In this document: positions 3,242-27,973 of the stretch, piece after piece | How the letters are laid out: the number at the start of each line of letters is the position of its first letter | How positions within the stretch are numbered: position 1 is the first letter of the stretch | NCBI RefSeq assembly: GCF_001445655.1 | Contig: NZ_LNBE01000004.1 | Location: forward strand, 2,863,218 to 2,927,217 | Direction: 5' to 3' | From: Streptomyces roseifaciens | GTDB lineage: Bacteria; Actinomycetota; Actinomycetes; Streptomycetales; Streptomycetaceae | DNA length: 64,000 bases | Program-made: the position numbers and the translations under genes | The notes under the pieces: model-generated | Databases searched by the model: none | What the model saw: the letters and a program-made list of their open reading frames with translations, nothing else | Told to the model about the DNA's origin: nothing

Positions 3242-3888
3242 AGCTTCTCCTCCGACGCCTGTACGTAGACCGTGCCCTCGCCGGACAGCTCCAGCTGGAA
3301 TGCCTCCCCGGAGCCGCGCCCCACCATCTCGCGCCAGCCGATGGCGGTGGAGAGCTTGCTGCGGACCTCGCCGCGGTGGGCGACGTAGGCCTGCGGGTCC
3401 ACGTGGACGGCCCGCTGGTGGCGGATCGGCAGCTCGATGACGCCGCCGTGGGCCATCACGGCGACCGCGCCGTGGCCCTTGAGGGTCGTGGTGAACAGGC
3501 CCTGGCCGGTGACCTGGCCGCGGACCATGCCCATGACGCCGCCCTGCGAGCCCATGAACATCGTGCCCTGCCGCAGGGTGCCGTCGAAGGCGAGCAGCCG
3601 GTCGGCCTCGACGTAGAGGGTCTCGCCCGACAGTTCGATCACCTGCACGTGGTGGCCGCCGTGGCCGAACATCACCGTGCCGCTGCCCTCCACGGTCATC
3701 AGCGGGGTGGCCTCGTTGGCGACGCGGCGGCCGATCATGCCCATCACGCCGCCCTGGCCGCCGGTGATGCTGGGGGTGAAGGAGACGTCGCCCTTGTAGG
3801 CGAGCATGGCGCCGCGCTGGCTGAAGAGGCGCTGGCCGGGGGCGATCTGCGCCTCGACCATGCGGGAGTTCAGGGTCCGGAACGGCAT
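3238..3888 (-). CDS. AIM24-family protein, second gene of the trio
   Basis: A 216-residue AIM24 paralogue. The frame is open much further upstream, but the ATG at 3888 is chosen because it overlaps the stop of the preceding AIM24 gene as ATGA and the family homology starts there ([18 protein letters not shown]). Recognisable family elements are [34 protein letters not shown], the AYVAHRGEV region and the C-terminal [20 protein letters not shown]. The segments QGGVMGM and GGQGGVMGM are Gly/Met-rich loops repeated within the protein. Function unknown; probably cytosolic and possibly forming a mixed assembly with its two neighbours. Confidence 0.88.
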
Positions 3889-4526
3889 CAGACGTCGCCT
3901 CCCACGGTGGTGCGCTCGCTCGGCTGCACGTAGACCAGGCCCTCGCCCTCGAAGCGGATCTGGAACGCCTCGCCGGAGCCCTCGCCGATGAACGTGCGGA
4001 AGTTGACGCCGGACTGGAAGTGCTGCTTGAGCTTGCCGGTGTGGGCGATGTACGCGCCCGGGTCGACCTGCAGGGGCGTGGACGGGGTCACGCGCAGCAC
4101 GACGGCCGTGCCGTCGGACATGATCGCCGCCTGTCCCGTGCCCTCGACGGTCGTGGTGAACAGGCCGTTGCCCTGGGAGGCGCCGCGCAGGCCGGTGAAG
4201 GTGGTGCCGGTGCGCAGGCCCGCGTCGGCCGCGAGGAGGTTGCTCGCCTCGACGTGGAGCGTCTCGCCGCGCAGGGAGACGAGGTTGATCTCGGTCGCCC
4301 GGTCGGCGAAATAGCAGGTGCCGTGTCCTTTCACCTCCATCACTTCCATCTGCTCGCCGGTGAGCCGGCGGGTGACCATGCCGCGCAGGCCGTCCCCGCC
4401 ACCGGTCATCTTCTTGAAGTTCATGTCGCCCTCGTACGCGATCATCGAGCCGTTCTTGGCCTTGACCGCGTCGCCCGCCAGGTCGACGGCGAGGACTTTG
4501 CTCCCCTGGAGCCGAAACTGTGCCAC
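3888..4526 (-). CDS. AIM24-family protein, first gene of the trio
   Basis: A 212-residue AIM24 paralogue that opens the three-gene operon. The start ATG at 4526 gives [27 protein letters not shown], and this is the first in-frame methionine preceding conserved family residues. The C-terminal [21 protein letters not shown] closely matches the equivalent part of the second gene ([17 protein letters not shown]), so the genes arose by tandem duplication. All three have diverged considerably elsewhere, which argues for distinct retained roles. The operon promoter should lie in 4527-4686, a gap shared with the divergent DUF3817 gene. Confidence 0.88.
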
Positions 4527-4686
4527 GGGACGACGCTAGCGGGCGGACTCGCCGGTCGACAGGGCCTTGGTCCCGGAATGACCCCGGATCCAGGCATCCG
4601 GGACGAGGCTGCAACAATGGACGAGCTTGTGAATGCCATCACAAGCTGTAGTCGTCCCGCCACTGTCCAGCCACTGACTCACGAAG

Positions 4687-5043
4687 GTGCGTACCCCCGT
4701 GGACATCAAGACCGCCTCCGCCCTGCGCCGGCTCCGCCTGGTCTCCGCTCCGGAGGCCGTTTCCTTCCTGCTGCTGCTCGTCTGCTCCGTGCTCAAGCGC
4801 ATGACGGACTTCAACGCCGTACCGGTGATGGGTGCCGTCCACGGCGTCCTCTTCATCATCTACGTGATCTTCTGGCTGGACGCCTGGAACAAGACCAAGT
4901 GGTCCCTGAAGACCGCCGCCCTCTACTTCGTCCTCTCCGTCCTGCCGACGGGCGGCTTCTTCGCCGACCGCATGCTGCGCCGCGAGGCCGAGGCGAGCCT
5001 GATCGCCGCCCGCGCCCGCAAGGAGGGCGTGGTCAACGCATGA
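4687..5043 (+). CDS. DUF3817 integral membrane protein
   Basis: A 118-residue protein of the DUF3817 family, small membrane proteins with about three helices and unknown function. Visible segments are [15 protein letters not shown] (about 24-38), the conserved [19 protein letters not shown] (about 49-67) and a third helix around [15 protein letters not shown] (about 78-92), followed by a charged C-terminal tail. The GTG at 4687 is used; a GTG four codons on (4699) is equally possible. Its stop overlaps the start of the thiamine-binding-family gene as ATGA, so the two are co-translated. A second DUF3817 gene lies 2.3 kb away at 6999. Confidence 0.88.
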
Positions 5044-6942: not shown

Positions 6943-6998
6943 CGCGGCCGGGCGGGGCGGCGAAGATCGCCCCGGAACGGGCGGTTACGCTCGTTGCC

Positions 6999-7328
6999 AT
7001 GAAGAAGAGCGTCCTGACCCGATACCGCGTGATGGCCTACGCCACCGCCGTGATGCTGCTGGTCCTCTGCGCCAGCATGGTCCTCAAGTACGGCTTCGAC
7101 ACAGGCGCGAACGCGACGCTGGTGATCTCCCAGATCCACGGCGTGCTCTTCATCGTCTACCTGATCTTCGCCTTCGACCTCGGCTCCAAGGCCCGCTGGA
7201 AGTTCGGCAAGCTGCTGTGGGTGCTGGTCTCCGGCACCATTCCGACGGCCGCGTTCTTCGTCGAGCGCAAGGTCGTCCGCGAGGTCGAGCCGCTGATCGC
7301 GGACGCCCCGGTCCGGGCCACCGCCTGA
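6999..7328 (+). CDS. DUF3817 integral membrane protein (second copy)
   Basis: A 109-residue DUF3817 protein and distant paralogue of the one at 4687. Three hydrophobic segments are seen: YATAVMLLVLCASMVLKYG, the conserved QIHGVLFIVYLIFAFDLGSK and LLWVLVSGTIPTAAFFVERK. The shared core HGVLFI(I/V)Y(V/L)IF marks the family. It follows a MarR gene and precedes icmA. The product should sit in the cytoplasmic membrane; no transport or enzyme function is known for the family. Confidence 0.88.
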   Translation: MKKSVLTRYRVMAYATAVMLLVLCASMVLKYGFDTGANATLVISQIHGVLFIVYLIFAFDLGSKARWKFGKLLWVLVSGTIPTAAFFVERKVVREVEPLIADAPVRATA

Positions 7329-7436: not shown

Positions 7437-7496
7437 TGCCCGCCGGGCCAGCGCCGGACCGGAGCGGGCAGGACGCGGAGAGGTGGACGAGAGCAC

Positions 7497-9197
7497 ATGG
7501 ATGCAGCAGCCATCGAGGCCGGTCGCGGCCGCTGGCAGGAGCGTTTCGACGCGGCCCGCAAGCGGGACGCCGACTTCACCACCCTCTCCGGTGACGAGGT
7601 CGCTCCCGTCTACGGCCCCCGCCCCGGCGATGCGTACGAGGGCTTCGAGCGCATCGGCTGGCCGGGGGAGTACCCCTTCACCCGCGGCCTGTACGCCACC
7701 GGCTACCGCGGCCGCACCTGGACCATCCGCCAGTTCGCCGGCTTCGGCAACGCCGAGCAGACCAACGAGCGCTACAAGATGATCCTCGCCAATGGCGGCG
7801 GCGGACTCTCGGTCGCGTTCGACATGCCCACCCTCATGGGCCGCGACTCCGACGACCCCCGCTCGCTCGGCGAGGTCGGCCACTGCGGCGTCGCCATCGA
7901 CTCCGCCGCCGACATGGAGGTCCTCTTCAAGGACATCCCCCTCGGCGACGTGACGACGTCCATGACCATCAGCGGGCCCGCCGTGCCCGTCTTCTGCATG
8001 TACCTCGTCGCCGCCGAGCGGCAGGGCGTCGACCCCGCCGTGCTCAACGGCACGCTCCAGACCGACATCTTCAAGGAGTACATCGCGCAGAAGGAGTGGC
8101 TCTTCCCGCCCGAGCCCCACCTGCGCCTGATCGGCGACCTGATGGAGCACTGCGCCCGCACCATCCCCGCCTACAAGCCCCTGTCCGTCTCCGGCTACCA
8201 CATCCGCGAGGCCGGGGCCACGGCCGCGCAGGAGCTCGCCTACACCCTCGCCGACGGCTTCGGGTACGTGGAGCTCGGCCTGAGCCGCGGGCTCGACGTC
8301 GACACCTTCGCACCCGGCCTCTCCTTCTTCTTCGACGCCCACGTCGACTTCTTCGAGGAGATCGCCAAGTTCCGCGCCGCCCGCCGCATCTGGGCCCGCT
8401 GGATGAAGGAGGTCTACGGCGCGAAGTCCGAGAAGGCGCAGTGGCTGCGCTTCCACACCCAGACCGCGGGCGTCTCCCTCACCGCGCAGCAGCCGTACAA
8501 CAACGTCGTGCGCACGGCCGTGGAGGCCCTCGCCGCGGTCCTGGGCGGCACCAACTCCCTGCACACCAACGCCCTCGACGAGACCCTCGCCCTCCCCAGC
8601 GAGCAGGCCGCCGAGATCGCCCTGCGCACCCAGCAGGTGCTCATGGAGGAGACCGGCGTCGCCAACGTCGCCGACCCGCTCGGCGGCTCCTGGTACGTCG
8701 AGCAGCTCACCGACCGGATCGAGGCCGACGCCGAGAAGATCTTCGAGCAGATCAAGGAGCGGGGCACCCGGGCCGTGCCGAACGGCGCGCACCCGATCGG
8801 GCCCGTCACCTCCGGCATCCTGCGCGGCATCGAGGACGGCTGGTTCACCGGCGAGATCGCCGAGAGCGCCTTCCGCTACCAGCAGTCCCTGGAGAAGGGC
8901 GACAAGCGGGTCGTCGGCGTCAACTGCCACCACGGCTCGGTGACGGGCGACCTGGAGATCCTGCGCGTCAGCCACGAGGTCGAGCGCGAGCAGGTGCGCG
9001 TCCTGGCCGGGCGCAAGGCCGCGCGGGACGACGCGCGGGTACGGGCGTCGCTGGACGCGATGCTGGCCGCGGCGCGGGGCGGCTCGAACATGATCGAGCC
9101 GATGCTGGAGGCGGTGCGGGCCGAGGCCACGCTCGGGGAGATCTGCGGGGTGCTGCGGGACGAGTGGGGGGTGTACGTCGAGCCGGCCGGGTTCTGA
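7497..9197 (+). CDS. icmA: Isobutyryl-CoA mutase large subunit
   Basis: A 566-residue adenosylcobalamin-dependent acyl-CoA mutase of the methylmalonyl-CoA mutase large-subunit family. It would interconvert isobutyryl-CoA and n-butyryl-CoA, linking valine breakdown with fatty-acid and polyketide precursors. The TIM-barrel substrate domain is complete (YATGYRGRTWTIRQFAGFGN, PYNNVVRTAVEALAAVLGGT near the C-terminal half). The protein stops after the barrel and lacks the C-terminal B12-binding domain with its DxHxxG motif, so it needs a separate small subunit (IcmB), which is not in this window. The length matches known IcmA. A perfect palindrome lies upstream and a repeated Streptomyces hairpin element follows the stop. 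Confidence 0.93.
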   Translation: MDAAAIEAGRGRWQERFDAARKRDADFTTLSGDEVAPVYGPRPGDAYEGFERIGWPGEYPFTRGLYATGYRGRTWTIRQFAGFGNAEQTNERYKMILANGGGGLSVAFDMPTLMGRDSDDPRSLGEVGHCGVAIDSAADMEVLFKDIPLGDVTTSMTISGPAVPVFCMYLVAAERQGVDPAVLNGTLQTDIFKEYIAQKEWLFPPEPHLRLIGDLMEHCARTIPAYKPLSVSGYHIREAGATAAQELAYTLADGFGYVELGLSRGLDVDTFAPGLSFFFDAHVDFFEEIAKFRAARRIWARWMKEVYGAKSEKAQWLRFHTQTAGVSLTAQQPYNNVVRTAVEALAAVLGGTNSLHTNALDETLALPSEQAAEIALRTQQVLMEETGVANVADPLGGSWYVEQLTDRIEADAEKIFEQIKERGTRAVPNGAHPIGPVTSGILRGIEDGWFTGEIAESAFRYQQSLEKGDKRVVGVNCHHGSVTGDLEILRVSHEVEREQVRVLAGRKAARDDARVRASLDAMLAAARGGSNMIEPMLEAVRAEATLGEICGVLRDEWGVYVEPAGF

Positions 9198-22783: not shown

Positions 22784-23293
22784 ATGCGCAAGCGCACCCT
22801 TCCCGCCCTGGGCCTCACCGTCGCCGCGGCCGGTGTCGTCGGCGCCGCCCTCGCCATGAGCCCCGCCACGGCGGGTGCCGCCACCGCCTCCCCGGCCGGC
22901 CCGCGCTCGGTCACCATCGAGGCCGTCGAGAAGGGCACCTCGGTCAACTTCGTCGACGTCGCCCCGTCCGACTCCGCCCTCGGCGACCAGCTGATCGGCA
23001 CCGGCGACCTCGTCGGCGCCGACGGCCGCAGGATCGGCACCAGCAGCTTCCAGGGCATCTCCACCGACGCCAAGCCGCGCACCGCCGAGATGCTGACCTT
23101 CGTCTACGACCTCGGCGACGGCAACAGGATCACCACGTCGGGCGCCGCCCGGCTGAACGCCCAGGGCCCGGTCTTCGACGAGCAGTTCGCCATCACCGGC
23201 GGCACCGGCAAGTACAAGAACGCCCGCGGCCAGGTGCGCGTCCTGCAGGAGACCGTGGAGCGGGCGAAGGTCACCTTCGACATCCAGCTCTGA
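22784..23293 (+). CDS. Secreted allene-oxide-cyclase-barrel-like protein
   Basis: A 169-residue exported protein. The signal peptide is plain (MRKRTLPALGLTVAAAGVVG, cleavage near ATAGAATA at about residue 30). The mature region matches the allene oxide cyclase/dirigent-like barrel often found in Streptomyces: LIGTGDLVGADGRRIGTSSF, MLTFVYDLGDGNRITTSG, and the family-typical FAITGGTGKYKNARGQVRVL. Plant relatives steer cyclisation or radical coupling, while bacterial members are mostly uncharacterised. It heads a two-gene operon under a probable MarR operator. Extracellular action on an oxidised phenol is an inference from the tyrosinase next door. Confidence 0.85.
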   Translation: MRKRTLPALGLTVAAAGVVGAALAMSPATAGAATASPAGPRSVTIEAVEKGTSVNFVDVAPSDSALGDQLIGTGDLVGADGRRIGTSSFQGISTDAKPRTAEMLTFVYDLGDGNRITTSGAARLNAQGPVFDEQFAITGGTGKYKNARGQVRVLQETVERAKVTFDIQL

Positions 23294-23388
23294 CCGCGTC
23301 CCGGCCGTGACGTGCGGGCCCTCGTGCCCACCCCGGCCGTGACCGCCACGCCCGCCCCGTCGCCCCCGCACTTCTGGGAGAACCCCGC

Positions 23389-24006
23389 ATGAACACCCCC
23401 GTCAAGATCACCGTCCTCGGCGCCACCGGCATGGCCGGCAGCCGCATCGTCGACGAGGCGCTCACCCGCGGCCACGCCGTCACCGCCGTCGCCCGCCGCC
23501 ACGACGAGCAGGCCCCGGCCCGCGACGGCCTGCAGCGCGTGACCGCCGACGTGACCGACCCCGTCCTGCCGCTCGAGGCCGCGGACGTCGTCGTCAGCGC
23601 GCTGCCCGCCCGCGTCGCCCTGCCGCTGCTGCCCGAGCTGACCGTCCGCGCGGCCGGCCGCCGCCTGCTCTTCGTCGGCGGCGCCGGCAGCCTGCGCCTG
23701 CCGTCCGGCGAGCGCGTCATCGACCAGCCCGGCTTCCGCGAGGAGTGGAAGCCCGAGGCGTCCGCGCACGTCGAGCTGCTGGACGCGCTGCGCGCCCTGC
23801 CGCAGGACGTCGACTGGACCTTCCTCAGCCCCTCCGCCCTCTTCCTGCCCGGCGAGCGCACGGGCACCTTCCGCCTCGGCGGCGACGACCTGCTGGCCGA
23901 CGCCGACGGCACGTCGCGCATCTCCGCCGAGGACTACGCGGTCGCGCTGCTGGACGAACTCGAGACGCCGCGGCACCGCCGTCAGCGCTTCACCGTCGGC
24001 TACTGA
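23389..24006 (+). CDS. NAD(P)-binding Rossmann reductase (NmrA/SDR-like)
   Basis: A 205-residue atypical short-chain reductase. The nucleotide-binding motif GATGMAGSRIVDEA sits at about residues 10-23, and the fold continues with VVVSALPARVALPLLPEL, RLLFVGGAGSLRLPSGE and FLSPSALFLPGERTGTFRLG. It lacks a YxxxK pair at the usual SDR place, as in NmrA/BVR-B-like members, so it may reduce flavins or quinones or act as a sensor. The ATG at 23389 follows GGGAGAACCCC. It is co-directional with the secreted barrel-protein gene 95 bp upstream. Confidence 0.88.
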   Translation: MNTPVKITVLGATGMAGSRIVDEALTRGHAVTAVARRHDEQAPARDGLQRVTADVTDPVLPLEAADVVVSALPARVALPLLPELTVRAAGRRLLFVGGAGSLRLPSGERVIDQPGFREEWKPEASAHVELLDALRALPQDVDWTFLSPSALFLPGERTGTFRLGGDDLLADADGTSRISAEDYAVALLDELETPRHRRQRFTVGY

Positions 24007-24029
24007 GCACCGCCGCCCGGCGAGCGGGT

Positions 24030-24055
24030 GCGAGGCCCCGGAGGGGAGGCCTCGC
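24030..24055 (+). terminator. Hairpin after the reductase gene
   Basis: GCGAGGCC and GGCCTCGC around a 10-nt loop, 24 bp after the stop codon. Probable terminator. Confidence 0.6.
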
Positions 24056-24142
24056 CCCTCTCGTCACGTGCTGAAGCACGGCACCGTCCGGTGGGCGCAC
24101 TTCGCCGAGCATCCAGCCCCGCGAGCGTATCGGCGGGGCAGT

Positions 24143-24398
24143 GGGGTGCGGGGGTGGGCTGGGTTCCGTGGTTCGTGTGCGGGTTAGAACAGGCTGGCAG
24201 CGGGGGGAGGGGTGGGGGGCTCGGGTCCGGCTGCTTGGCTGTGCGGCCGGTGGGAGGCTGGCCGCCGTACTCCTGCCGTCGCGGATGCGGGTGCGTGAGG
24301 AGACCGGTCTGTCCGGTTGTGGCTGAGGGGGAGCTGGCTGCTGCCGCGATGTGGCTGGGCCCGTCGTGGGCGCTTCGCTCGGCGCGCCGCCGTTGTGG
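24143..24398 (+). repeat. Left arm of a 256-bp inverted repeat
   Basis: This arm aligns without gaps to the reverse complement of 24867-25122. I count about 23 mismatches in 256 bp (about 91% identity). The outermost 66 bp are identical and mismatches collect toward the inner end. The arm includes GGGTTAGAACAGGCTGG. No transposase or integrase is nearby and no target duplication was found. Small frames inside show no ribosome site. Confidence 0.9.
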
Positions 24399-24460
24399 TT
24401 GCTCGTCCGGCTGCGGGATGCATGTGGGTGCGGATTTCACCCAGTGTGGGCGTGGGGCGG

Positions 24461-24871
24461 CGGATAAGTGGCCCGGGATGGCGGCCGAGCACCTCAGCAG
24501 CCCCCTGAGTGTGCTCCTGTCACAGACGAGCCCACTCAGGGACGGCCTGCCGCCCGCTGCGGCGGATAAGCGGGCCGAGTTGCAGACTGCAGGCCACCTT
24601 CAGTCCCGCTGGGCCTCCCCTGTCACAGGAGCTTCCACCCAGGGGCGGTTAACTGCCCGCCGCGGCGGATAAGCGGGCCGAGCTGCAGGCTGCAGGTCAC
24701 CTTCAGCCTCACCGGGCCTCTCCTGTCACAGGAACTCGCATCCAGGGGCAGCCTGCCGCCCGCGGCGGCGGATAGGTGGGCCCGGTCGTCAGTTGCAAGC
24801 CACCCGCAGCCTCACCACACGCCCTCTGTCACAGGAACCCCTACTCAGGGGCAGTCGCCCGCCCGGCCACG
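24461..24871 (+). repeat. Four tandem 103-bp repeats between the inverted arms
   Basis: Repeat starts at CGGATA: 24461, 24563, 24666 and 24769 (spacing 102, 103, 103). Each unit keeps CGGATAAG (CGGATAGG in the last), a central TGTCACAG inside a small palindrome (TCCTGTCACAGGA in the third), a CAGGG motif and, in most, CTGCCGCCCG at the end. Units 1 and 2 can form longer hairpins around TGTCACAG (CCCTGAGTG with CACTCAGGG in unit 1; CTGGG with CCCAG in unit 2). No coding signal is seen. The 24399-24460 spacer holds nothing recognisable. Confidence 0.88.
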
Positions 24872-25122
24872 ACGGTGGCGAGCTGAGCGAAGCGCCCATG
24901 ACGGCAGGAACCACATCGCGGCAGCTGCCAGCTCCCCCTCAGCCACAGACGGGCAGACCGGTCTCCTCACGCAGCCGCATCCGCGACGGCAGGAGTACGG
25001 CGGCCAACCTCCCACCCACCGCACAGCCAACACACCGAACCCGAGCCCCCCACCTCTCCCCCCGCTGCCAGCCTGTTCTAACCCGCACACGAACCACGGA
25101 ACCCAGCCCACCCCCGCACCCC
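24867..25122 (-). repeat. Right arm of the 256-bp inverted repeat
   Basis: Reverse complement of 24143-24398 at about 91% identity. It starts where the fourth tandem repeat ends and stops 11 bp before the stop codon of the DUF397 gene. A 13-bp palindrome (CCTGAGGCTCAGG, 25125-25137) covers the junction with that gene. Confidence 0.9.
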
Positions 25123-25132
25123 GCCCTGAGGC

Positions 25133-25354
25133 TCAGGTTCGGAAATGGCCGTCGCACACCGCGGTCGCGAACAAGGACCACGCTTCCGGCGCAAAGGTCA
25201 GCGCCGGGCCGCCGGGTATCTTCGAGTCCCGTACAGGAACGATGCCGTGGGCGGCGGCGAGGGTGGGGGCCCATTCGACGCAGTTGCCGCCGTCACCGTT
25301 GCTGTAGCTGGACTTCAGCCACTCCGTTCGGGAGAGGTTGAGGGGAGCGCTCAC
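25133..25354 (-). CDS. DUF397 protein (WhiJ-locus type)
   Basis: A 73-residue DUF397 protein. These small acidic proteins are paired with XRE/DUF5753 regulators in Streptomyces, as in the whiJ locus, and are thought to modulate the partner. Family motifs are clear: WLKSSYSNGDGGNCVEWAPT and IVPVRDSKIPGGPALTFAPE, ending in WSLFATAVCDG. The GTG start at 25354 lies within the stop of the upstream regulator (GTGA), so the two are translationally coupled. The gene ends at the border of the large inverted repeat. Confidence 0.93.
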   Translation of the reverse strand: MSAPLNLSRTEWLKSSYSNGDGGNCVEWAPTLAAAHGIVPVRDSKIPGGPALTFAPEAWSLFATAVCDGHFRT

Positions 25355-26178
25355 GAGGGTGCCTCCGTTACGGCTCGGATGAAGGCCGCCGACTTGCTTG
25401 GCGACAAGGCATAGGCCCTCAGCAGATCGTAGGACCGGCGGCGAGCGCTGACAGTCTCCGGATCTTCGATCAGCGAGCCGGTGGCGATGCTCTCCACGTA
25501 GGCGACGTTCGTGTCGTCGTCCAGTGTCATCAGCGTCAGGGCGCCGCTCATCAGGGCATGTTCCCCATGTTCGAACGGCAGAACCTGAACAGTCGTCGTC
25601 GCGGTGTCCACGAGCTCGACCAGGCTGACCAATTGGGCCCGCATGACGGCCGGGCCCCCGACGGGACGTCGGATCACCGCCTCGTCCAAGATGATGGACA
25701 GATCAGGCGGCGCCTCCGCCGTCAGCAGCACCTGACGGCTCAGCCGGGCCGCCACCATCTCCTCGATCGCGTCCGGCGAAGCTTTCGGATTGCTGACGCG
25801 GAAGAGAGCCCGTGCGTAGCCCTCCGTCTGGACGAGGCCCGGCACGACGTGGGCGGCGTACTCGTCGATCACCCGAGCCTGGGCTTGCAGCTCCATGAAT
25901 CTGCGGTACTTGTCCGGATGGACCTCATGCCGCGCGATCGCGTAGAGCCTCGCGAAGTGCTCGCCCGTGCCGAACACCTCGTCCAGCCGCGCAGGCAGGT
26001 CAGGCGGCGGCACGTGCTCGGCCGTCTCGATACGCGCCAGGTGGCTGCGGCTGTACCGGACGACCTCGGCGAGTTTCTCCAGCGTCATGCCCGCCGCCTC
26101 CCGCCGGTGTCTGAGGTCGGCGCCGAAGAGGTGGCGGGCGGACCGGTCCGGTGTCAGCTTCCGCGGTGTGCGCGCCAT
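25351..26178 (-). CDS. XRE-family regulator with DUF5753 domain (WhiJ-like)
   Basis: A 275-residue regulator. An XRE helix-turn-helix (about residues 15-75: FGADLRHRREAAGMTLEKLA, VVRYSRSHLARIETAEHVPP) is followed by the DUF5753 domain (about 95-270: MELQAQARVIDEYAAHVVPG, LVQTEGYARALFRVSNPKA, DLSIILDEAVIRRPVGGPAV, DTNVAYVESIATGSLIEDPE). Such proteins act in development and antibiotic control together with DUF397 partners. The longer open frame upstream is ignored because the ATG at 26178 follows AAAGGAGT. The usual third member, an anti-sigma-like ATPase, is absent; two small ORFs diverge instead. Confidence 0.93.
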   Translation of the reverse strand: MARTPRKLTPDRSARHLFGADLRHRREAAGMTLEKLAEVVRYSRSHLARIETAEHVPPPDLPARLDEVFGTGEHFARLYAIARHEVHPDKYRRFMELQAQARVIDEYAAHVVPGLVQTEGYARALFRVSNPKASPDAIEEMVAARLSRQVLLTAEAPPDLSIILDEAVIRRPVGGPAVMRAQLVSLVELVDTATTTVQVLPFEHGEHALMSGALTLMTLDDDTNVAYVESIATGSLIEDPETVSARRRSYDLLRAYALSPSKSAAFIRAVTEAPS

Positions 26179-26287
26179 CCCGGTAACTCCTTTTCTCGGG
26201 TACCCGGTTGGGAATTGAAACTCTGGCCGAGCGTACGTACGGCCCGCGACGCTGGAACCGCAGACAACGAGCACCCCCCACCAAGGG

Positions 26288-26512
26288 GTGAATGTGACGG
26301 AGGCAAGTCGCGTGGGTGGACAGCAGCAGCTAGAGCACGGTTTCGCGCCGGAAGAGGGCACGGGCCGGCGGCCCCTTGACCTCTCGAAGTGGTGTCTGCG
26401 GTGCGCCGAGCTCCGCGTGCGTTTTCACGGGGCCGCATGCCTGGGCCGCACCGTGGAGGCCGAGGCGCTGAACGCCGAGTTCGTCCGGCATCAGCGGCTG
26501 GTGCACTCGTGA
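26288..26512 (+). CDS. Small Cys-containing protein divergent from WhiJ-like regulator
   Basis: A 74-residue putative protein. The second half is distinctive (LSKWCLRCAELRVRFHGAA, then CLGRTVEAEALNAEFVRHQR), with a CxxC and a third cysteine that could bind a metal or form a disulfide. I do not recognise the family with confidence. The GTG at 26288 (shown as M) has a weak ribosome site; a later GTG (26311) is an alternative. Its stop overlaps the GTG of the next ORF by four bases, the coupling typical of real operons, and it diverges from the XRE/DUF5753 gene. Length and third-position GC favour a real gene. Confidence 0.5.
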   Translation: MNVTEASRVGGQQQLEHGFAPEEGTGRRPLDLSKWCLRCAELRVRFHGAACLGRTVEAEALNAEFVRHQRLVHS

Positions 26513-26754
26513 CCCGGACGGCGGTCGGGCGTCTCGTGCTCCGCCGCTGCGCCCACCCCGTGGGATGGTCCCGCGCGCTCGGGTTCGAGCGGTGCGCCCT
26601 GTGCGGTGCCGAGCGCCATGCGGGCTACGCGGCGCTGAGGATGCCGATGCCCGACAGCGCCCCCGCACCGGCGTGGGGATGCCCCAGCCCCGGCGCTCCG
26701 GGGCAGCGGCCACCCGGGAGTGCGCACGCGAAGACCCCGCCGTCTGTCCGCTGA
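26509..26754 (+). CDS. Small protein with CxxC finger, DUF6255-like
   Basis: An 81-residue putative protein starting at the GTG that overlaps the previous stop. The N-terminal half (LRRCAHPVGWSRALGFERCALCGAER in outline: CAHPVGW, ERCALCGAERHAGYAAL) has the Cys-His-...-Cys-x2-Cys layout of a mini zinc ribbon. It resembles what I remember of the DUF6255 'natural product biosynthesis' family. The C-terminal 35 residues are Pro-rich and disordered and may be read-through into noncoding sequence. With the previous ORF it forms a small pair next to the WhiJ-like module. Confidence 0.45.
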   Translation: MTRTAVGRLVLRRCAHPVGWSRALGFERCALCGAERHAGYAALRMPMPDSAPAPAWGCPSPGAPGQRPPGSAHAKTPPSVR

Positions 26755-26780
26755 CGGCGGGGCGCCCCCGCTTGCGGGAC

Positions 26781-26813
26781 CGGCCCTGGATGTCCCCCGT
26801 GAACCCAGGGCCG
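26781..26813 (+). terminator. Hairpin after the small ORF pair
   Basis: CGGCCCTGG and CCAGGGCCG (9 bp) around a 15-nt loop, 27 bp past the second small ORF. Probable terminator. Confidence 0.5.
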
Positions 26814-26974
26814 CGACCCGCTTCCCCCCGACGGGGCCCTGTCCCGAAACAGCTGTGGGGACCGGCCGCGCCTTGACTGCGGACAAGGGGAACGGTACTA
26901 ACGGGGCCATCCATCGGCTACTCGCCAAACGCGGCACCTGTCCCGGATACGCGGACACCCGAGGGAAGCCCCTG

Positions 26975-27973
26975 ATGACTGAACCAGGCGTGGGGCCCGA
27001 GGCCCCCGGCAACATGCGCACGCTCGTCCTCAGTAATGATCTCGACGAGACCAGGGAGATCATCAGCTCTGCCTACAGTCCTTATCAACTCAGCGTGCTC
27101 GGCGACCCGAAGGACTTCTCCGCGTGGTACGCGGAGGGCGGCTTCCCGGGCATCACGGTGTCGGGCCTGCAGTACGGCGCCGAGACGCTCGTCGCGCCCC
27201 AGCCCCTCGACTCGTACCTGCTGGTCTGCCAGCTGGTACGCGGCCGGGTGCGGGTGTCGTCGCCGGGACGGGAGGAGCGGGTCGTCGGGCCCGGGCAGAC
27301 GTACGTGCTCGACCCGTACCGCTCCTTCCAGGTGCACTGGGCGCCCGGTGCGCGGATGACGACCGTCCGGCTCGACCGGGAGATGGTGGAGCGGGCGGCG
27401 GCCGACGCGCTCGGCATCGACGGTTCCGTACGGGCCCGCTTCTCGCTCAACGGCACCACCTCGGCGGCGGCGGCCAGGAGCTGGGCGGGGATCTCGGCGG
27501 CCGTGCACCGGGAGGTGCTCGGCGAGGGCGTGGCCCGCAGCAGCCCGCTCGTGGCCGGGCACCTGACGCAGTCGACGGCCGCGATCCTCATGCAGACGCA
27601 CGAGCTGATCACGCAGGGCGTGGACGCGCAGCGCCCGGGCGAGGTCGCGCACCCGGCCGTGCGGCGGGCGATGGCGCTGGCCGAGGAGCGCGCCGACCAG
27701 CCGCTCACGCTGGCCGATCTCGCGGCGGCGGCGCGGGTGAGCCCGCGCGCCCTGCAGGAGGCGTTCCGCCGGCACGTCGACTCCACGCCGCTGGGGTACC
27801 TGCGCGAGGTCCGGCTGGGCCGGGCCCACCAGGAGCTGGTGGCGGCGCGGGGCGACGGCGACGTCACCGTGGCCGAAGTGGCATACCGTTGGGGTTTCAA
27901 CAACCTCGGCCGCTTCGCCGCGTACTACCAGCAGCGGTACGGGCGCCCGCCCTCCCGCACCCTGCGCGCGTAG
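26975..27973 (+). CDS. AraC-family transcriptional regulator
   Basis: A 332-residue AraC activator. The N-terminal part (about 40-190) is an AraC-binding-like cupin domain (SYLLVCQLVRGRVRVSSPGR, VVGPGQTYVLDPYRSFQVHW). The C-terminal double HTH spans about 225-330: LTLADLAAAARVSPRALQEA, FRRHVDSTPLGYLREVRLGR, then VAEVAYRWGFNNLGRFAAYY and the terminal RYGRPPSRTLR. The frame is open upstream, but the ATG at 26975 is the likely start; its ribosome site is weak (GAGGGAAG). It precedes the ABC export genes by 270 bp, and control of them is possible but not shown. Confidence 0.92.
   Translation: MTEPGVGPEAPGNMRTLVLSNDLDETREIISSAYSPYQLSVLGDPKDFSAWYAEGGFPGITVSGLQYGAETLVAPQPLDSYLLVCQLVRGRVRVSSPGREERVVGPGQTYVLDPYRSFQVHWAPGARMTTVRLDREMVERAAADALGIDGSVRARFSLNGTTSAAAARSWAGISAAVHREVLGEGVARSSPLVAGHLTQSTAAILMQTHELITQGVDAQRPGEVAHPAVRRAMALAEERADQPLTLADLAAAARVSPRALQEAFRRHVDSTPLGYLREVRLGRAHQELVAARGDGDVTVAEVAYRWGFNNLGRFAAYYQQRYGRPPSRTLRA

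Follow-up and report, generated by a model that had tools for sequence, protein, structure and literature searches.

REP and BIME repeats are moved by Y1 transposases and form inverted pairs of tens of bases that often lie at gene ends. Rolling-circle plasmids have a single-stranded form, generally described as the rep-sense strand. For pIJ101-related plasmids, the single-strand origin (sso), also named sti, is described as lying downstream of spdA2, whose 135-residue product is encoded between rep and the sso (PMC4170104), and as measuring 0.2 kb (PMC9761944); the original sti papers (Deng 1988, Zaman 1993, Suzuki 2004) are taken as cited in these two articles. Integrative rolling-circle elements (AICEs) are represented by pSAM2, whose NUDIX protein Pif is reported to act in conjugal immunity (PMC3218068). 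According to its abstract, BrickBuilt of Porphyromonas gingivalis is an intergenic MITE whose inverted ends enclose tandem repeats; it is present in many copies and has a narrow host range (PMC4596501).

Here we analyse an element of Streptomyces roseifaciens that lies in a 64,000-nucleotide stretch of DNA, referred to below as the window. Two of its features go beyond a first, sequence-only reading of this DNA, namely the homology of its arms to plasmid single-strand origins and the existence of a family of copies at other loci.

Results

Anatomy of the window element

The sequence-only reading had described two inverted arms facing each other across four units of about 103 bp, and the repeat search, TRF and a DNA search of the own genome all recovered this structure (Table 1). 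The repeat search places the arms at 24143-24414 and 24851-25122 (272 nt, 89% complementary, 436 nt between them), and the own-genome search pairs them over 256 bp at 91%. Their outer identical run, read from the sequence, measures 67 bp (24143-24209) and not the 66 given before. TRF reports an array at 24531-24865 with a period of 103, 3.3 copies and a score of 318; the units themselves occupy 24457-24558, 24559-24661, 24662-24764 and 24765-24867, with a first spacing of 102, and identity to the reference unit is 80% in one further unit and 68% in another. A small palindrome had been claimed for each unit. This holds for CTGTCACAG, which is present in all four window units, but TGTCACAG was found among the aligned units only in the window copy and in a S. 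hiroshimensis copy (L117), the family consensus at that position being CGCCTCA; it is thus not a family trait, and unit spacing also varies across the family. The TCCGTGG-type outer extension, in turn, is common to many element copies.

Table 1. Features of the element and its neighbouring genes (window positions)
Feature	Position	Strand	Basis or remark
Whole element: inverted sso-like arms flanking four tandem units	24143..25122	.	repeat search, own-genome search, arm profile
Left outer extension (TTCCGTGGTTCG..GGGTTAG), beyond the part covered by the arm profile	24143..24187	+	
Left arm, match to the entire sso/sti-like profile (model 1-218)	24188..24406	+	profile and direct plasmid alignment
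Stem-loop of left arm core (helix 2, consensus structure)	24267..24304	+	by-hand coordinates, alignment A2; one strongly covarying pair, modest support
Four tandem units, 102-103 bp, homologous to units in other element copies	24457..24867	+	
Right arm, inverted, sso/sti-like profile match (model 1-214)	24863..25077	-	
Stem-loop of right arm core	24961..24998	-	by-hand coordinates, alignment A2
Right outer extension, identical to the left one	25078..25122	-	
DUF397 (BldB-family) gene	25133..25354	-	stop codon 10 bp from element
XRE regulator with DUF5753 (WhiJ-type)	25351..26181	-	start codon assumed; longest ORF from 26361
NAD(P)-binding protein gene, left neighbour	23389..24006	+	

Two other origins for such a structure had been raised with the first reading. 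An assembly artefact is very unlikely because independent assemblies of other species contain the same architecture at other sites. Fragments of a gene duplicated in inverse orientation are contradicted by the indels that separate the left arm from 34 aligned homologues, since 94 of 101 internal ones (shared indels being counted more than once) are not multiples of three, and the element arms are non-coding.

A stem-loop in the arm core is kept in an alignment of 35 arms. At one of its pairs, 96.7% of cells are paired and 11 of the 35 sequences switch from C-G to G-C. The alignment energy is -9.1, compared with a shuffled mean of -6.8 (sd 2.9), and the fold z-scores are -0.99 and -0.47. Because folding energies do not exceed those of shuffled sequences, support for an arm structure is modest. 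The 103-bp units have no conserved structure when alignment folding is compared with column shuffles, and an Rfam search of positions 23000-27000 returned a single match (E 0.68) that lies outside the element.

Arms resemble plasmid single-strand origins

A blastn search with the right arm against 72,556 plasmid records matched 66 of them at 82 places, and 64 of the matched records are from Streptomyces. The matches include classical rolling-circle plasmids, with E-values of 4e-17 for pSN22, 1e-11 for pJV1, 1e-10 for both pSNA1 and pSVH1, and 8e-7 for pIJ101. Local alignments of the arm with plasmids scored 86-126, compared with shuffled maxima of 39-49 (100 shuffles each); the homology is thereby seen in direct comparison, without a trained profile. 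In pIJ101, the arm as extended (7456-7693) lies between a gene at 6966-7208, which we take to be korB, and a 135-aa ORF at 7970-8377, whose length agrees with that published for spdA2. On the grounds of sequence homology and this position, we equate the arm with the sso interval of rolling-circle plasmids, and its homology to the plasmid sso appears near certain.

The arm is antisense to rep in all six plasmids with a Rep match, one match being short, among seven plasmids compared. The window element lies in the chromosome with no rep gene beside its arms, and the mapped plasmids (L062-L064, L066-L070, L091-L093) contain no inverted arm pair as close as that of the window. A replication origin would fit the arm better than a clt transfer site, because the arm also occurs on plasmids of another transfer type, one of them with a MobF gene. 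A search with the whole element against 50,697 phage records gave no matches, and a phage origin was rejected on that basis.

Beyond the window element, many Streptomyces plasmids with no annotation at that place probably have a single-strand origin where the arm matches. For example, the large plasmid NZ_CP107946.1 contains the arm together with a MobF relaxase gene. Another plasmid, of 5.2 kb and listed under Pseudomonas (L173, NZ_CP061946.1), combines a Rep gene with the sso interval and an nshR/tsnR methyltransferase gene, and looks like a pIJ101-derived Streptomyces vector or contamination.

A family of dispersed copies

In the own genome (G000), a DNA search that scored the best 40 of 140 candidates gave at least 24 matches, which were grouped by hand into at least nine sites, all on contig C4; copy numbers are thus lower bounds. 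Arm pairs are present at four of these sites (the window, L026, L027 and L025, the last with a partial second arm), and the other five (L028-L032) hold units or remnants only. C4, which represents 3.64 of 8.64 Mb, accommodates all nine sites, while 8 of the 25 XRE-DUF5753 genes reside on other contigs.

A covariance model of the arm core, for which the best twelve matches per genome were considered, matches 44 of 295 Streptomyces genomes at E <= 1e-4; among the matches listed, G000 and S. klenkii (G060) are the only genomes with inverted pairs within 2 kb. The pattern of the outer arm end was found in 15 stretches of four named genomes, those of S. klenkii, 'Streptosporangium' nondiastaticum (so titled), S. 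roseoverticillatus and S. hiroshimensis, and we take the Streptomyces among them to belong to the verticillate group. Inverted pairs were also located in G060, G311 and G313. Orientation is constant, with a plus-strand arm on the left and a minus-strand arm on the right in all 16 pairs, two of which (L025 and L120) are partial or collapsed. Between one and five related tandem units lie inside 15 of the 16 pairs and are missing from the collapsed L120.

Local profiles were used to map 24 sites in five genomes (nine in G000, six in G060, seven in G311 and one each in G312 and G313). Those of G000 come from the DNA search, which includes units and remnants, whereas those of G060 and G311 come from arm matches alone (all nine and all 15, respectively). 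Weaker arm matches in G312 (C1, C11) and G313 (C6) and DNA matches in G312 (C18, C19), G313 (C4) and G060 (C3:441405) lie outside this set. The last of these, a short match to the outer arm end at G060:C3:441405-441465, is a few bases from a DUF397 match (441469-441621) and probably represents a further decayed copy. The element shares with MITEs or non-autonomous transposons its terminal inverted repeats and the dispersal of its copies. These copies are best described as a new family of chromosomal, plasmid-derived, non-autonomous and non-coding dispersed repeats whose inverted pairs are so far confined to a few related Streptomyces.

Association with WhiJ-type loci

An XRE-DUF5753 and/or DUF397 gene of the WhiJ/BldB type lies within about 1.5 kb of 20 of the 24 mapped sites. 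The exceptions are L025, L121, L128 and L030 (weak XRE match only, E 6e-4), and the first three of these adjoin a KorA/TraR-like GntR gene, which is the plasmid neighbour of the sso. In the own genome, seven of nine sites are no more than 2.5 kb from an XRE-DUF5753 gene although such surroundings make up only 2.5% of C4 (binomial P 2e-10), and three are no more than 1 kb away (P 1e-4); sites that share a similar block, as L027 and L028 do, are not independent in this test. None of 17 single-arm loci from other Streptomyces has an XRE/DUF397 neighbour in the fetched stretch, and a KorA/TraR-like GntR gene is on the strand of the arm in six of them and on the other strand in one.

Copies lie along the outer borders of these regulator loci. 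At six loci the element starts within about 50 bases of the end of DUF397, and at L126 and L133 it follows a short ORF in the usual place of DUF397. One of these two short ORFs, examined as L116:1615-1806, had no Pfam match. Elsewhere, divergent ORFs upstream of the XRE gene separate it from the element. These ORFs may be abaA-like, since abaA-like genes are described beside whiJ and bldB paralogues (PMC10294661); one that was compared with Pfam gave no match. The unit array is found in both orientations relative to DUF397. At L027, in the same genome as the window, a NUDIX hydrolase gene (4349-4864, minus strand) stands between both arms. At L031, two 180-bp direct repeats (2682-2860 and 3243-3421) flank a decayed element copy and appear to be copies of the short, profile-negative ORF that lies behind the XRE gene in the usual place of DUF397; L126, the counterpart of L031, has one such 180-bp stretch and a full element.

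Presence and absence at corresponding loci

The presence of the element differs between corresponding loci of related species. Surrounding stretches of the counterparts of the window's DUF397 gene in G311, G060 and G313 contain no arm or unit, and the left NAD(P)-binding gene has homologous stretches in G060 and G313 that likewise have no arm or unit nearby. In G060, however, the left gene and DUF397 stand 3.9 kb apart with other sequence between them, in G313 one block is inverted relative to the other, and in G311 the left gene is absent from the fetched stretch; with flanks interrupted or rearranged in this way, these are not clean empty sites. Dispersed copies, as a mobile element would predict, were found in four species, but clean empty sites were not.

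The closest whole relative of the window element is a S. hiroshimensis copy (L130), which is collinear with it in blocks of 490 and 393 bp (83% and 86% identity) and follows the DUF397 gene at another XRE locus. Some copies keep their position in two species, as L130 has the gene order of L125. A likely counterpart of the L125/L130 locus in the own genome (L164) has no element; its DUF397 gene is followed directly by the flank that in L125 is found 2.54 kb further on, so that the missing 2.54 kb comprises the element (1.27 kb) plus one gene.

A tree of 38 XRE proteins, 20 of them with an element, requires nine label changes, eight of which are forced by well supported branches, a count inflated because the element-free XREs come from G000 only. 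The label is somewhat clustered, as few changes being needed in 7 of 500 shuffles. The observed pattern of presence and absence would also result from differential loss or gene conversion.

Several marks of known transposition systems were sought. Across 13 pairs, the longest word shared by the flanks of an element averaged 6.6 bp, compared with 6.3 bp for mismatched flanks, and a transposon that leaves target-site duplications was rejected because none were found. A Y1 transposase (TnpA-REP) is absent in G000, G060 and G313, with one partial match in G311, and was rejected as the driver. RepSA was found in G000 and G060 only, and in S. klenkii its gene is 4.3 kb from a single arm. No autonomous relative sharing the ends was seen among the 24 mapped sites, whose neighbours are partly annotated.

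Discussion

Among the four explanations proposed at the outset, the evidence most favours a non-autonomous mobile element whose ends are conserved: copies are dispersed, different DUF397 loci are occupied in different species and the ends are shared with plasmids, although no target-site duplication was found. Mobility appears likely from these comparisons, and the element is probably plasmid-derived and mobile and not a structured RNA. In its specific form, the reading we favour by a modest balance is that the feature is one copy of a dispersed non-autonomous mobile element whose ends are two minus-strand origins. Our confidence in it is weakened, and that in a relic origin strengthened, because the counterpart sites are not clean and the tree samples element-free XREs from one genome.

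The main competing reading holds that AICEs or plasmids once inserted near regulator genes and left the arms behind as relics, which then spread by segmental duplication and gene conversion of WhiJ/DUF397 clusters with no mobility of their own. We regard this as a serious possibility, though the less probable one. AICEs often carry NUDIX genes, and those of Frankia are described with XRE and GntR genes (PMC3218068); the NUDIX gene between the L027 arms fits an AICE ancestry for that reason. The three sites that adjoin KorA/TraR-like GntR genes, the RepSA gene near a single arm in S. klenkii, and the similar blocks of DUF397, XRE, divergent gene and element at L027, L028, L123 and L131 are also consistent with relics. 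Relics alone would, however, leave unexplained why inverted pair and unit array are so uniform when the mapped plasmids offer no comparably close pair. The scatter of element-bearing XREs over the tree (with element-free XREs from G000 only) and the element-free counterparts of the window's DUF397 gene speak for movement as well.

It is also conceivable, but improbable, that the element persists owing to a cis-acting role at the neighbouring WhiJ-type locus, whether by ending transcription from both sides, as an insulator or as an array of binding sites. The sequence-only reading had suggested a decoy array for the adjacent XRE/DUF397 regulator. The association of the element with such genes proved much stronger than the sequence alone could reveal, given 20 of 24 sites and several elements directly behind the DUF397 stop codon, and other reports lend the idea some plausibility, as bidirectional transcript ends are described for 10 of 24 XRE-DUF397 pairs of S. 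clavuligerus (PMC8269248) and the paralogue WhiJ9 is described as binding direct repeats CGXXCTCAAC (PMC10294661). Yet 18 of the 25 XRE-DUF5753 genes of the own genome (26 matches, two of which are one gene) are more than 2.5 kb from any known copy, and the array occurs in both orientations relative to DUF397. The decoy itself gained no positive evidence from a narrow test, a scan of the 330-bp regions upstream of 20 element-bearing XRE genes for two motifs: CTCARC or TGTCACA (either strand) lies, as a raw count, upstream of eight, once each and never repeated. A promoter and terminator scan was uninformative, with two terminator-like sites found where 0.5 were expected and only one of them inside the element. 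Highly improbable, finally, is mutual pairing of the arms to form a large hairpin, a cruciform site or a structured RNA. The window copy taken singly invites this idea, since its arms are 89-91% complementary with 67 identical outer bases, and since they are closer to each other (87% in the partner-arm measure) than either is to the arms of L027 (mean 75%), the sole other own-genome pair in that comparison. Over 13 pairs, however, partner arms average 80.3% identity and arms of different elements in the same genome 82.5%. Partners that are no closer than non-partners imply that pairing between arms is not conserved over the family, and the conservation of each arm as a module counts against all three of these structures. 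The arm comparison thus largely refutes this group of readings, including the cruciform-type site and the large structured RNA first entertained; the latter also has no Rfam family, unstructured units and no folding support over shuffles.

How might a mobile element bounded by two minus-strand origins work? Copies would move between loci of the WhiJ/DUF397 type, possibly via a single-stranded intermediate and with enzymes supplied in trans. If the plasmid single strand is indeed the rep-sense one, the constant arm orientation would give every paired element an active origin at the 3' terminus of each strand. Host enzymes could then prime whichever strand became single-stranded and synthesize inward until the double strand is complete, as the anatomy suggests, and the unit array may be the part that is recognized. 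The full proposal, in which convergent minus-strand origins allow host priming of each strand, the element settles at the 3' ends of DUF397 genes and it thereby helps WhiJ-type loci to spread, is tentative and on the whole doubtful. The use of plasmid minus-strand origins as paired ends of a chromosomal repeat was not found described in the literature searched (titles and abstract beginnings of open-licence articles). Such an arrangement would make it possible to test a single-strand origin in a setting other than a replicon, and might account physically for the spread and rearrangement of XRE/DUF397 loci in Streptomyces.

Relation to known systems

Both REP/BIME repeats and the element form inverted pairs, but the arms of the element are about 220 bases long and its own genome has no Y1 transposase domain. 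BrickBuilt shares the plan of tandem repeats between inverted ends, and differs in its 23-bp units and small inverted ends; its abstract connects it neither with plasmid origins nor with any family of regulators (PMC4596501). AICEs such as pSAM2 are resembled in the rolling-circle kinship of the arm and, at some sites, in neighbours of the KorSA/GntR, XRE and NUDIX kinds (PMC3218068), whereas no integrase, Rep or transfer gene was seen in the element. The closest likeness in sequence is to the sti/sso of pIJ101-related plasmids, with which the arm agrees over about 0.2 kb that includes a conserved core. In the rolling-circle plasmids examined, this interval lies beside korA/traR and antisense to rep; in the window, by contrast, it stands in the chromosome, away from any adjacent rep or tra gene, as an inverted pair around an array of units.
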